NCBI RefSeq assembly: GCF_000979455.1
Contig: NZ_JJOY01000044.1
Coordinates: 62,001-126,000, forward strand
Reading direction: 5' to 3'
Source: Methanosarcina sp. 2.H.T.1A.6
GTDB lineage: Archaea > Halobacteriota > Methanosarcinia > Methanosarcinales > Methanosarcinaceae
DNA: 64,000 nucleotides
The first letter of the stretch is position 1; every line of letters starts with the position of its first letter. The position numbers and the translations under genes were made by a program. The notes below the pieces were generated by a model, which was not told the origin of the DNA, searched no databases, and worked only from the letters and a program-made list of their open reading frames with translations. Positions 2,269 to 62,164 of this stretch are shown in pieces.

Positions 2269-2345
2269 TGTCGAAACCAGAGAAATCTGCGGGCACTCGC
2301 TGCCCCATCCTATTTTTTTGATCAACCTCTGAAAAGAGCCGGGCT

Positions 2346-2531
2346 GTGCTGCAGGCGGTAAAGGACGGGCTTATTCCTGATGAATGGCTGGAAAGCTGTC
2401 ACAGGTTAACCGAAGAGCTCGTATTCCATTCCAAAAAATCAAAAATAGGACTGAAACGGCTTGAAAAGGAGAGATACAGGGAAATAGCGGTAACCATTAA
2501 GAAATACAGGAAATTTACGGGAAAGCCGTAA
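2346..2531 (+). CDS. Small basic ORF, possible gene remnant
   Basis: A 61-codon frame with GTG as its only early start codon follows the TPR gene on the same strand. The frame is open back to 2322, just after a TGA at 2319. The translation is rich in Lys, Arg and Glu (for example [19 protein letters not shown]) and would form helices. I see no convincing ribosome-binding site and do not recognise a family. It could be a small gene or the C-terminal remnant of a larger one. Confidence 0.3.
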
Positions 2532-3000
2532 GATGAAGCGCATTTTGAACTGTATTTTTATGCAGGCAAGGTTCATCAGGAATTCATCAGTTATTCTAAG
2601 GAACGATCACAAAATAATGTAGGCATATTATTTGCAAAGTAAAATCTTAGTTGATGACAATGATCTTGAAAATCAATACATTCAATCGAAACTATACATC
2701 GGTTGTAGGTCTGTGACAGCTCCCAAGTCTTATTTATTGACGGTCAAGTCTACCTTCGTGCACTCCACATTCACTCATTTTGATTCTTAAGTTTCAAGAA
2801 AGATCCGAGTCTTTCAGTCCCCTTTTATTATTCATCTGAATGTCTCCCTCTGAACGAAATAATACGAAGCGTATATATACTTCTTAATTTTATTGAAAGA
2901 TAATTATTACTTCTCCTTCTTGTGTGCAACTCAATACACTCAGAGTTGCTTTGAAATATATATTGAAGTCAAAAATATTTTATGACAGTGAAGGGTTCTT
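2532..3000. other. Intergenic region with promoter-like AT-rich DNA
   Basis: No credible gene. The right half is AT-rich and holds two TATA-like stretches, GTATATATAC at 2871-2880 and AAATATATATT at 2954-2964. The second would place a start site about 25 bases later, close to 2985 and just before the gene at 3001. The sequence GAAGGG at 2991-2996 can serve as its ribosome-binding site. Confidence 0.5.
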
Positions 3001-6000
3001 ATGGAAACTGGGTGGTTTGTAACTGCTAATGACATTAAACAATGGACTGAAACAAATAAACGTCAAGCTGAAGGATTATTGCCTGAATTGGTTCGCAGAT
3101 TGATTCTAGCAAGTTGCAAACCAGATCATTTGCATTTTCCATCAGGAGACAGTATAGCTATTGGAGGATGGGATGGCACTCTAGAAGTTGATGAGGGGAA
3201 TGAATTTGTTCCTTCTGGCTTTTCTGTTTGGGAATTTGGAACTAATGGAAGTATTAATAACAAATTTGAGAGTGATTATCAGAAACGATCTGATGATCCA
3301 GGCGACATAAGCCTTTCTGAAACCGCTTTTGTTTTTGTTACATCCAGAATTTGGAAAGATAAAGACAAAAAATGTTCAGAAAAAAATAAAGAAAACGTTT
3401 GGGAACAAGTTAGGGGAATTAATGCTGACGATCTGGAAAACTGGCTTCAGCAGTGTCCAAGTGTTCATCGATGGTTTGCCAGCCTTATTGGAAAACGAAC
3501 AGGTGCCATATGGGATATTGAACAGGCATGGGAATCATGGGCCTGTGGTACTTCTATTAAAGCAACTTTTGAGCTTGTATTAAATGGACGTTCAGAACAA
3601 TCAGAACATTTATTAAATAAATTAACGGGCTCCTCATTATTGATTTCTGTTAAGGCGGATTCGGAAAACGAGGCTTATGCATTCACACTTGCAACTATAG
3701 TAAAGAATGAAGATTTAGCTCCTAGGGCGCTAATTGTTAAAGATCGGATTTCATGGAATTTTTTGTTAGAAACTCAAAATTCCTTGATATTTGTTCCTCA
3801 GGGATTCACTCCAGAAAATATTGGGTACGCAAAGCAAAAAGGACACTTCGTTGTTATTCCAGTTGATTCAAGTTCACCACGAATGACTTCTAATGAAATC
3901 AACTTGGGGAAAATGTTACGAGATGATAGGATTATAGCTTTGCAGTCAATGGGAATTAGTAAAGACCAAGCAGAAAAAATATACTCTGATACTCGGGGCT
4001 TTATGGGACCAATTCGCCGACATGGAATACTCGGTCCTCATGAATGTATGATTCCAAAATGGGTTGATCACTTTGATCCAAAAGTACTGGTTGCCATTTT
4101 GATGATGACTAAATGGGATACTCGGAAATCAAAAGATAAGGAAGCCATTTCAATATTGGCCGATACTCCTTATGATCAACTTGAAAGTAAATTATACGAA
4201 CTTACTTCCTTTGAAGATACTCCTGTACGCCTTATTGGAAGTTATTGGCAGGTTATTTCAAAAAACGATCTCTGGTCACTAATTGCTCGTAAAATCAATC
4301 GTCAAAGCATTGATCGGCTAGAAAACGTCGTTTTTGATGTTTTAGGTGAATCAGATCCTTCTTTTGATTTGCCGCCTGAAGATAGATGGCTGGGAAGTAT
4401 AAAAAATGCAGTTCCAGAATATTCGGAAGAGTTAAAGTTCGGACTTGCTGATACTTTGGCATTGTTTTCAGCATTTGGAGACGATGAATGTCAGAATATG
4501 GGTGAAATTAAACTTACTGATCAAGTGACTTACTGGGTAAGAGAATTGTTGACTAAGGACATCTCTGCTCGAGGCTGGTATTCTATTGGAAGAAATTTAG
4601 TTCCTTTAGCCGAAGCAGCCCCTGACAGTTTTTTAAAATCGCTAGAAAGTAGCATGGAAGGAAGTGATCCATCCATTGGTCCGTTATTCATAGAACAGGG
4701 AGTATTTTGTGGATGTCCTTATTCGAATCTTCAGTGGGCTCTTGAAACAATATCTTGGAATTTAAACTATTTGCCTCGAGTATCTCTATCTCTAGCAAGA
4801 CTTTCAGAAATTTATCCTGGTGAGAGACATAGTAATGGTCCATTAAATTCTCTAAAAGAAATTTATTTAGGGTGGATAAATAATACCTCTGCAACACATG
4901 AAAACCGCCTGCAGATCATTGATACCGTTTTGATCAAATATTATCCAGAAGTGACATGGAAACTTCTGATTTCTCTTTTACCAGAGGACCATGGAGGTTT
5001 TTCTTCTTCTATTAATAAACCAAATTATCATAATTGGGCAGAGACTCTTAAAAAAGGAGTGATCAACAAAGATTATTATCAATATGTCAATTGTGTAGCA
5101 GATAAACTCATTGATTTAGTGGATCATGATCCAAAAACAAGATGGCTTGAGTTAGTTAAAAATGTAACTAGATTGCCGAAAAAATCTTTTTACACATTCA
5201 TTGATAAACTGTTGACAGTCAAAAGTAATGAGTTGGACGATAACGTAAAACTGGAGATCGCAAACGAACTCAGATCTATCATTTCTAGGCATAAAGAATT
5301 TAAGGGCAGAGAATGGGCTCTCCCTGAGGAGGCCACTTGTAAGCTTGAAGAGGCTTTTGATTACATTGTTCCAGATGATTTAATACTAAAAAACAAGTAT
5401 CTTTTCGATGAGTATACTCCAGAATTCATTAATCCGATAATTAGACTAAAAACCAATCATCAAGATCATGAAGAAATAATAGAAAATTATCGGAAGGATG
5501 CATTGCTGAAAATATATCAAATGAAAGAAATAGATGGAATAAAGAAATTAACTAGAGAATGTAATTTTCCTACAATAGTAGGTACTGTCATAGCCAAATC
5601 CGAGTTCAAAAGTAAGATTGAATCGGAATTGTTGAATTGGTTAGAAAGCGATGAAGAAAACTTAATAATTGCTTCACAATCTTTTATTTTTTGGTGTGCC
5701 ATCGTTGATGAAAGTTGGGTAAATTTGGTATCCAATCAGTGCAGTTATAGGAACAAAGATTGGATAGTTAACTTTCTGTTAGGTTTACCCTTTGGCAAAA
5801 ATACTTTTGAAATATTAAATCGGATGGACAAAGAAATTACAGAAGCTTATTGGAAAAAAGTTAATCGTTACTATTTAAGAGAGAACGATATGGAAATGAT
5901 CAATTGGGTAGCAGACCAGTTGCTAATAAACGAAAGACCTTTAAATGCACTTGATGCTACGCATGTTTTTTACGGTTCAAGTCATGATGTGTCTTTAGAT

Positions 6001-6819
6001 TGTAGTTTGCTAGTCAGTATTCTTAAAAAAACAGCATTTACTAGTTATTCAAATAGTGAGAAATCAACCATAAAAACTGAACTAATATCAGCTGTTCAAA
6101 CTCAAGATTATAATATCCTTAGTGCTATTGAATATATACAAGAACAAGGACAACTGTCAAGAGAAGAGGTAGCTCTCATTGAGTGGATTTACCTACCACT
6201 TTTAAAATACAATAGCCTGAAGTCAGTTAAACCATTATATCTAGAAAAAGAAATCTTGAGCAATCCAGAATTTTTTGTACAGACTCTTTCTCTAGTTTTT
6301 AAGCCTAATAATGAGGGAGATCTCACAGCTACCTCTAAAAAGATTAGGGCAGAAAATGCTTGGCTATTATTGAGTATGATTTCAGAAATACCAGGTCAAC
6401 AAGAAAATTCAATTAGTGCTGAAAAACTCAGAGAATGGATATATAAAGCTAGAAATAAACTAGAAAAGCTAGATATTCTAAAAATTGGAGATAGTCAGAT
6501 CGGTACAATTCTATCAAATTCGCCGGTCGGCACTGACGGAATTTGGCCTCATGAAGTTGTAAGAGATCTTATTGAAGAGTTAAGAAATCCTGCGTTAGAG
6601 CATGCGTTAGAGATTGGAAAGTGGAATTCGAGAGGTGCAACAACACGATTACCCTTTGATGGTGGTAAACAAGAACGAGATCTTGCCAAAGAGTATCATG
6701 ACTATGCAGAAAAGCTTGCTCTACAATGGCCTAGAACATCAGAAGTTCTGCGGAGTTTGGAAAGATCATATGGACGTCATGCTGATAAAGAAGACTGGGA
6801 TGTTGAATTGCTAGAATAA
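3001..6819 (+). CDS. Large protein with putative nuclease-like N-terminus; candidate defence protein
   Basis: This 1272-aa single-gene unit is not a family I can name. Residues about 50-170 carry GGWDG (D58), SVWEFG (E78) and a following K88...DYQKR, an arrangement resembling a PD-(D/E)XK nuclease core. Residues about 205-340 look like the NTPase region of a STAND-like protein, with hydrophobic strands (SSLLISV, SLIFVPQGF, HFVVIPVD) and a lid-like segment ending in GPIRRHG. The expected Walker A GxxxxGK(S/T) is absent; the position reads KADSENEAYAF. The remaining ~900 residues are helical and may form a repeat sensor. The gene is visibly AT-richer than its neighbours and stands alone between ordinary genes, which suggests transfer. 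Defence is inferred from architecture only. Confidence 0.6.
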   Translation: METGWFVTANDIKQWTETNKRQAEGLLPELVRRLILASCKPDHLHFPSGDSIAIGGWDGTLEVDEGNEFVPSGFSVWEFGTNGSINNKFESDYQKRSDDPGDISLSETAFVFVTSRIWKDKDKKCSEKNKENVWEQVRGINADDLENWLQQCPSVHRWFASLIGKRTGAIWDIEQAWESWACGTSIKATFELVLNGRSEQSEHLLNKLTGSSLLISVKADSENEAYAFTLATIVKNEDLAPRALIVKDRISWNFLLETQNSLIFVPQGFTPENIGYAKQKGHFVVIPVDSSSPRMTSNEINLGKMLRDDRIIALQSMGISKDQAEKIYSDTRGFMGPIRRHGILGPHECMIPKWVDHFDPKVLVAILMMTKWDTRKSKDKEAISILADTPYDQLESKLYELTSFEDTPVRLIGSYWQVISKNDLWSLIARKINRQSIDRLENVVFDVLGESDPSFDLPPEDRWLGSIKNAVPEYSEELKFGLADTLALFSAFGDDECQNMGEIKLTDQVTYWVRELLTKDISARGWYSIGRNLVPLAEAAPDSFLKSLESSMEGSDPSIGPLFIEQGVFCGCPYSNLQWALETISWNLNYLPRVSLSLARLSEIYPGERHSNGPLNSLKEIYLGWINNTSATHENRLQIIDTVLIKYYPEVTWKLLISLLPEDHGGFSSSINKPNYHNWAETLKKGVINKDYYQYVNCVADKLIDLVDHDPKTRWLELVKNVTRLPKKSFYTFIDKLLTVKSNELDDNVKLEIANELRSIISRHKEFKGREWALPEEATCKLEEAFDYIVPDDLILKNKYLFDEYTPEFINPIIRLKTNHQDHEEIIENYRKDALLKIYQMKEIDGIKKLTRECNFPTIVGTVIAKSEFKSKIESELLNWLESDEENLIIASQSFIFWCAIVDESWVNLVSNQCSYRNKDWIVNFLLGLPFGKNTFEILNRMDKEITEAYWKKVNRYYLRENDMEMINWVADQLLINERPLNALDATHVFYGSSHDVSLDCSLLVSILKKTAFTSYSNSEKSTIKTELISAVQTQDYNILSAIEYIQEQGQLSREEVALIEWIYLPLLKYNSLKSVKPLYLEKEILSNPEFFVQTLSLVFKPNNEGDLTATSKKIRAENAWLLLSMISEIPGQQENSISAEKLREWIYKARNKLEKLDILKIGDSQIGTILSNSPVGTDGIWPHEVVRDLIEELRNPALEHALEIGKWNSRGATTRLPFDGGKQERDLAKEYHDYAEKLALQWPRTSEVLRSLERSYGRHADKEDWDVELLE

Positions 6820-6960
6820 TCATCAAATAACTTTGTGAATTGAAATATTGGATGGGGCAGCATTTGTCTACTTTCCCGGACAGCGTAACACCTAAAAATG
6901 AGAAAGACTTTCTTGACTGCATAGAACGGGTAAGAGTAATAATTCGATTCTTTTTCATAC

Positions 6961-6975
6961 GGAGGGATTTGAACG
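6961..6975 (+). promoter_or_regulatory. Ribosome-binding site GGAGGG before ACG start
   Basis: GGAGGG (6961-6966) is separated by ATTTGA from ACG (6973-6975). The motif and spacing are ideal for a start at 6973, which decides between this and the internal GTG at 7165. Confidence 0.65.
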
Positions 6976-8082
6976 GCAAGCAAAGTCTATTTTGCAGACC
7001 TGAGGGCACAAAACCCCCGGGATAACAAAATAAGTAAGATACAGAGGCTTTTTGACGCTGCAGGTTTTGTAGAACTTTTAGGGGTAGACGACCTGACAGC
7101 AATCAAGATCCATTTTGGGGAATACGGAAACGACGGGTATATCAACCCGGTCTTTGTCCGGCAGGTGGTTGAAAAGATCCGGGCAGCCGGGGCAAAACCT
7201 TTTGTTACGGACACAAATACCCTTTATTCCGGGAGCCGGCATAATGCAGTCGACCACCTGACGACAGCCATTGAGCACGGTTTTGATTATTCGGTCATCC
7301 GGGCTCCTCTCATAATCTCGGACGGGCTCAGGAGCCAGAACGTCGCAGAGGTCGAGATAAGGCAGAAGCACTTCAAGACCGTGAAAATCGGATCTGACAT
7401 CGTTGCAGCCGACTCTATGATCGTGATGTCTCACTTCAAGGGGCACATCGTAGCAGGGTTCGGGGGTGCGATCAAGAACCTGGCAATGGGCTGTGCACCT
7501 GCAGCAGGCAAAAAGGACCAGCACTACCCCACAAGCCCCCACGTTGTTGAAGCAAAGTGTATCGGCTGCGGGAAATGCGTGGAAATCTGCCCTGTGGGAG
7601 CTGCATCCCTTGAAGGGGATGTCTCCAGGATCGAACCCGGCATATGCATCAGCTGCGGGCAGTGCATGGAAGTCTGCCCCGAAAGCGCCATCGACCTTAA
7701 TTGGGAGCAGGACATCCCCGAATTCCTGGAGTGCCTGACCGAATACGCATACGGCGCCGTAAAAGGAAAAGAGGGCAGGGTAGGCTATATCAATTTTCTG
7801 CTCAAAATCACCCCGGACTGCGACTGTGTGCCCTGGAGCGACGCCCCAATCGTGCCTGACATTGGAATCCTTGCATCAACCGATCCCGTGGCCCTGGACC
7901 AGGCAAGCTACGACCTTGTGAACAGGCAGAAAGGGCTTGTAGGCTCTTCTTTGCACTGCAACCATGAAGCTGGGGCTGACAAGTTCAAAGGGGCCTGGCC
8001 TAAAGTCGACGGCATCCACCAGCTTGAATATGCTGAAAAAATAGGATTTGGGAGCAGGGATTACGAGCTTGTTGAGATATGA
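6973..8082 (+). CDS. DUF362 protein with two 4Fe-4S clusters; apparent ACG start
   Basis: This is a DUF362-family protein followed by a ferredoxin-like domain, 369 aa from the proposed start. Two 4Fe-4S motifs are present, CIGCGKCVEICP (about residue 196) and CISCGQCMEVCP (about 225), so it is probably an electron-carrying or redox-linked cytoplasmic protein of unknown partner. Family-like sequence (ASKVYFADLRAQ, then IKIHFGEYGNDGYINP) runs well upstream of the first GTG at 7165, right back to an in-frame TGA at 6970. The codon after that TGA is ACG, and a strong GGAGGG at 6961-6966 sits six bases before it. The start is therefore most likely ACG at 6973, either a true non-AUG start or a mutated ATG. 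A T-rich terminator follows. Confidence 0.8.
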   Translation, partial: TASKVYFADLRAQNPRDNKISKIQRLFDAAGFVELLGVDDLTAIKIHFGEYGNDGYINPVFVRQVVEKIRAAGAKPFVTDTNTLYSGSRHNAVDHLTTAIEHGFDYSVIRAPLIISDGLRSQNVAEVEIRQKHFKTVKIGSDIVAADSMIVMSHFKGHIVAGFGGAIKNLAMGCAPAAGKKDQHYPTSPHVVEAKCIGCGKCVEICPVGAASLEGDVSRIEPGICISCGQCMEVCPESAIDLNWEQDIPEFLECLTEYAYGAVKGKEGRVGYINFLLKITPDCDCVPWSDAPIVPDIGILASTDPVALDQASYDLVNRQKGLVGSSLHCNHEAGADKFKGAWPKVDGIHQLEYAEKIGFGSRDYELVEI

Positions 8083-61099: not shown

Positions 61100-62164
61100 T
61101 CAATATTCATCTTCATTTAATACCTGCTTTGAGCCTGAGTATTCTCCAACTATAGGGATATTCTCCCCGCACACGGGACAGGTCTTTTCAGGAGTGATTT
61201 CGTACTTTTCGATATCAAAAAAACCGCGAGAGATCAACACTTTACCGCAGTTCGGGCAGAAGGTATTGTTGTATTCCTGCCCCGGAACATTCCCTACATA
61301 AACATACTTCATTCCTTCTTCAGTTGCGATCTTATGGGCGGTCACGAGGGTCTCTACAGGTGTCGGATAGAGGTCCTGCATCTGGTACTGGGGGTGGAAG
61401 CGCGTGAAGTGGAGGGGAGTATCAGGCCCGAGGTTTTTGTAGATCCACTTAGAAAGTTCCCGGAGCTCTTCGAGAGAGTCATTGTGTTTCGGGATGATGA
61501 GGGTCGTGATTTCCACATGAATCCCGAGCTCCTTTGCAAGGATGGAGGACTCAAGCACTGGAGCCAGTTTTGCGCTGGCAACGTCATGATAGAACTTTTC
61601 AGTGAAAGCCTTGATGTCGATGTTGGCAGCATCCAGCCGGGGGGCAATGTGCCTGAGGGCTTCCGGGGTCATGTAGCCGTTGGTCACGTAGACGGTCGCA
61701 AGGCCCGCGTCCTTTGCCAGCTTTGCGCTTTCGTATGTATACTCGTGCCAGATCGTGGGCTCGTTATAGGTCCAGGCAACTGACCTCGAACCCGATATAA
61801 GCGCCCTTTCCACCAGCTCTTCCGGAAGTATATCTGTTGTGTAAGAGTCTTCTACACAGGTCTGGGAAATGGTCCAGTTCTGGCAGTGTTTGCAGCGGAA
61901 GTTGCACCCGACAGTCCCTACCGAGTATACATAGGAACCCGGATAGAAATGATAAAGCGGCTTTTTTTCGATAGGGTCCACAGCTTCGCTGGAAACCGTA
62001 CCGTAAATAAGAGAATAAAGATTCCCTCCCCTGTTTTCCCGCACCCTGCAAAACCCTCTCTTTCCAGGGGCGATTTTGCACCTGTGGGCGCAGAGCCCGC
62101 AATGTACTTTATCAGCTTCGAGTTTCTCGTAGAACATGGCTTCTTTTATCACAACAATCCCCAT
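61100..62164 (-). CDS. amrS: AmmeMemoRadiSam system radical SAM enzyme (copy 2)
   Basis: A 354-aa paralogue of the protein at 8793, colinear along its length. The radical SAM motif is CNFRCKHC (about residue 86); the N-terminal CGLCAHRCK and the C-terminal CPNCG ... CPVCG pairs are kept. No AMMECR1 or Memo gene adjoins it either. The first ATG is 62164; by alignment with copy 1 the GTG at 62152 (MIKEAMFYEKL) is an equally good start, with GGGG six bases before it. The two copies lie in opposite orientation 52 kb apart. Confidence 0.88.
   Translation of the reverse strand: MGIVVIKEAMFYEKLEADKVHCGLCAHRCKIAPGKRGFCRVRENRGGNLYSLIYGTVSSEAVDPIEKKPLYHFYPGSYVYSVGTVGCNFRCKHCQNWTISQTCVEDSYTTDILPEELVERALISGSRSVAWTYNEPTIWHEYTYESAKLAKDAGLATVYVTNGYMTPEALRHIAPRLDAANIDIKAFTEKFYHDVASAKLAPVLESSILAKELGIHVEITTLIIPKHNDSLEELRELSKWIYKNLGPDTPLHFTRFHPQYQMQDLYPTPVETLVTAHKIATEEGMKYVYVGNVPGQEYNNTFCPNCGKVLISRGFFDIEKYEITPEKTCPVCGENIPIVGEYSGSKQVLNEDEY

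Follow-up and report, generated by a model that had tools for sequence, protein, structure and literature searches.

We have analysed a 64,000-nucleotide stretch of DNA from the archaeon Methanosarcina sp. 2.H.T.1A.6 (contig NZ_JJOY01000044.1, forward-strand positions 62,001 to 126,000; hereafter the window) and conclude that the 1272 amino acid (aa) protein encoded at window positions 3001-6819 is probably a horizontally mobile, one-gene antiviral sensor-effector of Avs-like build, with a nuclease, a STAND module and a repeat sensor in that order, and in which the nucleotide switch is dead. The open reading frame (ORF) is intact on the + strand and is real rather than a chance reading, given a ratio of nonsynonymous to synonymous substitution rates (dN/dS) between orthologues of 0.21-0.27, a value which also rules out a pseudogene. 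As the initial annotation of this DNA had noted, the gene is AT-richer than its neighbours (GC content 35.9%; window 43.0%, flanking genes 44-54%) and no operon partner is present in the window. A genome search indicated that it is single-copy in its own genome. A TATA-box-like run, AAATATATAT, is observed at window positions 2954-2963, ∼40-50 bases upstream of the start codon.

Predicted architecture of the window protein

Sequence searches with the window protein returned no match in Pfam, PADLOC or NCBIfam and no convincing one in the PDB, and hidden Markov model and PDB sequence searches with sub-alignments of the window family matched only the helix-turn-helix (HTH) domain fused to some members; we attribute the weak matches, among them ribosomal uS13 and de novo designs, to chance. 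Similarly, PADLOC gave no match between the window protein and catalogued AVAST models, relatives matching convincingly only HTH-type models. Anatomy was read from AlphaFold2 models and profile alignments, with the following domain layout:

3001-6819, + strand: single-gene defence candidate, 1272 aa (ORF; family; dN/dS 0.21-0.27)
3013-3495, + strand: PD-(D/E)XK-type nuclease domain, residues 5-165 (AlphaFold2 topology; Foldseek match to Avs4; hhalign to the D..QxK domain of a sister family)
3526-4035, + strand: NTPase-like module lacking P-loop and Walker B, residues 176-345 (AlphaFold2; hhalign to the P-loop sister family; no Walker A in this region in any member)
4129-4254, + strand: winged-helix-like unit, residues 377-418, opening the core common to all architectures (AlphaFold2; alignment of all architectures)
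4261-6816, + strand: HEAT/karyopherin-like alpha-solenoid, residues 421-1272, the presumed sensor (AlphaFold2; Foldseek)

The model of residues 1-360 (10-row alignment, pLDDT 80.6, pTM 0.82) has an alpha-alpha-beta-beta-beta-alpha-beta-alpha-beta-alpha topology at residues 9-151, which includes the alpha-beta-beta-beta-alpha-beta core with acidic residues (D58, E78) found in PD-(D/E)XK nucleases, followed at residues 198-331 by an alternating alpha/beta domain with a helical end. Its top fold match in the PDB by Foldseek is Avs4 bound to a phage portal (E 8.1e-6, probability 1.00, 344 columns), CED-4 and many AAA+ proteins ranking after it. Thus, the predicted N-terminal fold is not one unrelated to nucleases, as it has Avs4 as top match and aligns with the D..QxK domain of the sister family. 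The model of residues 346-1272 (pLDDT 80.8, pTM 0.59) is nearly all helical, in agreement with the ∼900 helical residues described initially, and comprises ∼50 helices with one winged-helix-like unit at its start (helices 377-387 and 391-401, strands 409-412 and 415-418). Foldseek matches the solenoid to SF3B1, importins and exportin, all HEAT/karyopherin-type solenoids, and this C-terminal alpha-solenoid of ∼850 residues is presumed to be the sensor.

The predicted structure therefore contains the effector-type N-terminal domain, the NTPase-like fold followed by a winged helix and the C-terminal repeat solenoid of Avs and other STAND proteins, and does not contain their P-loop NTPase module with Walker A and Walker B. 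Avs4 (AVAST type 4, PDB 8dgf) likewise places a nuclease-type N-terminus before an NTPase module and a large C-terminal repeat sensor; in contrast to Avs4, the window protein shows no detectable sequence match to it, lacks Walker A and Walker B, and has a solenoid which best matches HEAT/karyopherin-like proteins. Avs5 (AVAST type 5) shares the order of N-terminal effector, STAND module and C-terminal repeat sensor (PMC12931631), but the Walker A motif, whose Gly and Lys are essential for immunity in PaAvs5-1 (PMC12931631), is not present in the window protein. Because Walker A and B are absent, the window protein is outside the canonical Avs families, yet it is Avs-like in anatomy.

A putative rearranged nuclease-type active site

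Three short features mark the putative active site:

3172-3174, + strand: codon of D58 (GWDG), matching the sister-family Asp in GGEDG (invariant in 21/21; alignment)
3232-3240, + strand: E78-F79-G80, at the Q-x-K position of the sister family (E78 and G80 in 21/21; alignment)
3262-3264, + strand: codon of K88, the Lys which opens helix 85-98 and is a candidate for the relocated catalytic residue (invariant in 21/21; AlphaFold2)

D58, E78 and K88 are invariant in all 21 divergent family members compared, as are G56, G59, G73, G80, D92 and W148. The initial annotation had likened D58, E78 and K88 to a PD-(D/E)XK core; this holds for the residues themselves, their invariance and the nuclease-like fold, but not for K88 as the canonical lysine, since alignment to the sister family places Gly80 at that position in 21/21 members, the invariant K88 sitting 10 residues past E78. 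From its place on the adjacent helix, K88 may stand in for the absent lysine. A comparable E..K arrangement is present in the Uma2 family. In a single hhalign comparison with the Mrr catalytic family, suggestive only, the downstream beta-alpha-beta part alone was aligned (VTPR..W..DVR.IDA..L, E 0.015). A plasmid search with the nuclease domain by itself matched members of the window family in every case.

Loss of the Walker motifs relative to a P-loop-intact sister family

A weak profile match in another Methanosarcina (G422) led to a sister family of the same build in which the P-loop is intact. As far as we can tell this family has no name and had not been linked to the window family. Its members include the Methanosarcina protein (L108) and others from Thalassobaculum (L109), Pseudanabaena (L110) and Rhizobium (L111), and relatives are found on 44 plasmid records. 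A five-sequence alignment of the sister family was compared with a 20-member alignment of the window family by hhalign, the E-values being those of single comparisons. The two families are homologous over nearly their full length (probability 99.5%, E 4.2e-23, 965 columns), and separately over the nuclease domains (95.6%, E 1.1e-8), the NTPase regions (91.5%, E 8.5e-7) and the cores (95.5%, E 1.4e-8), the last including a solenoid segment, LLWALE, common to both. The sister family carries GGEDG..FQxKAT, GLSGLGKT and LLVVDxC, that is, a canonical D..QxK site, Walker A and Walker B, of which the window family retains only the Asp: GGEDG aligns with GGWDG (D58), FQ(A/C/N)KAT with WEFGT (E78, Gly80), and ILVVD with LIFVP, in which the Walker B acid is lost. 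The Walker A place is occupied as follows:

3652-3675, + strand: KADSENEA, residues 218-225, where the sister family has GLSGLGKT (alignment; column counts)

GxxxxGK[ST] is absent from the window protein and no family member has a Walker A motif in the NTPase-like region, the only such string among 20 members (residue 562 of L012) lying outside this region and being judged chance. The claim that an NTPase fold is kept without a P-loop is supported by homology to the P-loop family and by the matches to CED-4 and AAA+ proteins. The sister family was required to demonstrate this homology, comparison of the NTPase-like region with a small nSTAND3 set giving no signal (hhalign probability 0.2%).

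On two rhizobial plasmids the families occur in tandem, a P-loop-less HTH-fused gene being followed in the same direction by a P-loop member, in R. leguminosarum (L111 1648-9675, 64-bp gap) and in R. gallicum (L016 6719-14679); in R. gallicum R602sp, matches to the two families neighbour each other. These tandem genes could constitute a paired receptor. They also bear on the most serious alternative, namely that the nuclease and NTPase are both dead and that the protein serves as a sensor or regulatory subunit which, like one member of a pair of nucleotide-binding leucine-rich repeat (NLR) receptors, needs an active partner such as the Rhizobium P-loop paralogue. The change of QxK to ExG and the loss of the P-loop occur together, as such a pseudo-enzyme would predict. 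However, no P-loop member is encoded in the window genome and most loci read have none nearby, D58, E78, K88 and D92 do not vary, no other part of the protein is as well conserved as the nuclease domain, and where the N-terminus is swapped its replacement is another nuclease-like domain. We therefore consider a pseudo-enzyme unlikely, and a sensor-effector with its own nuclease is preferred.

Insertion, mobility and selection

Two segments that hold the gene were delimited by alignment:

2538-6867, unstranded: inserted segment of ∼4.3 kb, missing from the same site in other Methanosarcina (empty-site alignments L062, L063, L065, L067)
2823-6847, unstranded: unit that another genus carries elsewhere in its genome, with 82% DNA identity (L064; alignment)

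The site is empty in six Methanosarcina genomes (G295, G237, G139, G431, G424 and G340), in which the flanks are adjacent, 0.5-0.7 kb apart by matched stretches; in the window these flanks are a TPR gene at 202-2268 on one side and, on the other, a DUF362/ferredoxin gene (frame open from ∼6973 to 8082). Next to the copy in the other genus are a phosphoenolpyruvate-synthase-like gene and an N6-methylase fragment; genes of the DUF4325, PIN and HNH types lie close by. Between the window and Methanosarcina sp. UBA293, dS is 0.20 for the 1272-aa gene and 2.09 for the flanking DUF362 gene. Among orthologues the nuclease domain has the smallest dN/dS (0.12-0.15), the maximum falling in part of the solenoid (residues 651-950, up to 0.40). 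Combined, the dS gap and the dN/dS pattern show a transferred gene under purifying selection, in which the presumed sensor changes faster than the presumed effector.

The family is sporadic and horizontally mobile. Of 393 Halobacteriota genomes 6 have matches, and of 112 Methanosarcinaceae 5 do, one of the five being the P-loop sister, so that ∼4 belong to the window family. From these counts and the six empty sites, the homologues are not conserved in syntenic housekeeping positions, a pattern which would have spoken against a defence protein. An intact gene under purifying selection would suit a DNA repair or housekeeping protein of Methanosarcinaceae, but the sporadic occurrence within the genus, the empty sites, a dS far below that of a flanking core gene and the spread on plasmids and prophages already contradict it, and we regard such a protein as scarcely credible.

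Two observations concern the flanks. An apparent C-terminal remnant of an RsgA-like GTPase is present at window positions 2336-2538, just upstream of the insertion, and a recognisable piece of an RsgA GTPase lies at the matching place in UBA293 (L001 7772-8179). At the start of the DUF362/ferredoxin gene (6973-6975) UBA293 has ATG but the window has ACG, preceded immediately by an in-frame TGA; in the window this gene may start at a non-standard codon or further downstream (GTG 7165).

Family spread and exchange of N-terminal domains

Searches by tblastn and of genomes identified close orthologues in UBA293 (88% aa) and another genus of Methanosarcinaceae (78%), and, in two other genera of the phylum Halobacteriota, distant members. 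The family is also present on 23 plasmid records, all but two of them from Proteobacteria (the exceptions being an Actinobacterium and a Bacteroidota member), on 14 IMG/VR contigs and, counting partial matches, in 14-15 of 5426 E. coli genomes (for each of two sub-types, 7 genomes with a full-length match). One copy (L006/L008, G267) has a frame break between residues 94 and 106, a probable frameshift, its sister copy (L005, G316) being intact.

All members have in common a ∼900-aa core beginning near residue 350, which is preceded by one of three arrangements. The first is that of the window protein, to which some members add an XRE, HigA or MerR-like HTH. In the second (L024 and L031-L036), a different domain, FExxxQAxF...TDDLIV...LLGQxK, predicted to be a nuclease, fills the same slot on the same core and the NTPase-like region is missing. 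This TDDL..QxK domain is known also from Azospirillum, Hymenobacter and Burkholderia plasmids (L072, L073 and L074 carry it). In Azospirillum (GDAGCGKS) and Hymenobacter (GGAGVGKS) it stands before STAND-like modules whose P-loop is intact, and in Burkholderia before a TPR-PIN protein. No Pfam model for it was found and, unlike its position, its sequence has no detectable relation to the window nuclease domain (hhalign probability 0.1%). The third arrangement is a short tag (G-x-GHN) and occurs beside gapS6a. Nuclease-like domains swapped on a constant core are the usual sign of an effector slot, and the N-terminal slot here looks like one.

Public annotations name members 'helix-turn-helix transcriptional regulator' or 'HigA family', and approximately half do carry an N-terminal HTH of the XRE/HigA or MerR type, as might a DNA-binding regulator or a toxin-antitoxin-like addiction protein. 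The HTH is, however, an optional add-on of a few types, absent from the archaeal and several bacterial members, while the conserved part consists of nuclease, STAND-like region and solenoid; a regulatory or addiction role is consequently very unlikely.

Genes surrounding family copies

In line with the defence role originally assigned to the protein, bacterial copies are located near AbiE pairs, near an Abi-family protein and super-infection exclusion B, near SIR2 and abortive-infection genes, near a Shedu-domain protein and near restriction-modification genes. One directly follows an XRE/ImmA/PDDEXK set, the nuclease of which is PDC-S02 according to PADLOC. Relatives are carried on plasmids and prophages, some copies adjoining partition genes. 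The latter, together with the frequency of the family on conjugative plasmids, would fit competition between mobile elements, for example against plasmids, rather than antiviral defence; copies are also chromosomal and prophage-borne, where phage competition is the usual role, and this alternative appears quite unlikely to us.

The E. coli prophage copies are found in the ogr-tail region of P2-like prophages, directly 3' of gapS6a (NCBIfam NF047935, 136 bits against a cut-off of 90), others being beside phage and tail-fibre genes. P2-like phages are carriers of anti-phage hotspots (PMC9122126). In Buttiauxella as well, gapS6a is directly followed by the gene of a core protein that bears a short tag at its N-terminus. 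The tagged core protein is thus linked to the gapS6a type of locus of the GAPS6 (GapS6a/GapS6b) anti-phage system, but the window has no gapS6a, and the NCBIfam GapS6b model (NF047936) matched neither the window protein nor the core proteins of L069, L040 and L031. In two loci (L069 9675-10180 and L025 6588-7060) the GapS6a C-terminus, QNHSGTGDNIGGNKI, is similar to the tag, SQNHTGTGHNVAGNLIVYN, at the N-terminus of the core protein encoded downstream, a likeness which suggests a shared docking or assembly motif.

Proposed mode of action and significance

Several results weigh against an antiviral sensor-effector. With Gly at the position of the catalytic lysine in all members, the nuclease domain could be inactive. 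The sole convincing match in the PADLOC set of 2023 is the fused HTH, and its presence in many members could be the sign of a regulator. The immediate archaeal neighbours of the window gene are not defence genes. Finally, the link to Avs4 comes from Foldseek, with a template modelling (TM) score of 0.31 over the whole stretch and domains placed differently; as a TM score of ∼0.3 is expected for two domains in different relative placement, the match is one of domains and their order.

Considering both sides, we infer an antiviral role, a nuclease activity, a trigger and an order of events as follows. The C-terminal alpha-solenoid would bind an invader protein or a damaged host target, and the winged helix and the P-loop-less NTPase-like scaffold would relay the resulting change while keeping the nuclease domains at the N-termini together. 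Through its rearranged active site (D58, E78, K88), the nuclease would then cut nucleic acid and stop the infection, probably killing the cell. As canonical nucleotide binding is excluded, activation in the archaeal lone-gene form would have to be nucleotide-independent, while on some rhizobial plasmids the switch could come from the P-loop-intact relative encoded next door. For the more general proposal, that such proteins form a widespread class of STAND-derived immune receptors which lack nucleotide binding, signal to a nuclease without an ATP switch and are sometimes paired with a P-loop-intact sister as a two-receptor unit, the chances seem to us just short of even.

Loss of Walker A and Walker B in an architecture kept across archaea and several bacterial phyla makes an NLR-like receptor without a nucleotide switch testable, and the P-loop sister family provides a direct comparison. 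The ∼900-aa core with its three kinds of N-terminus represents a sensor module outside the family and defence libraries searched, and is tied to the type of locus occupied by gapS6a in E. coli.

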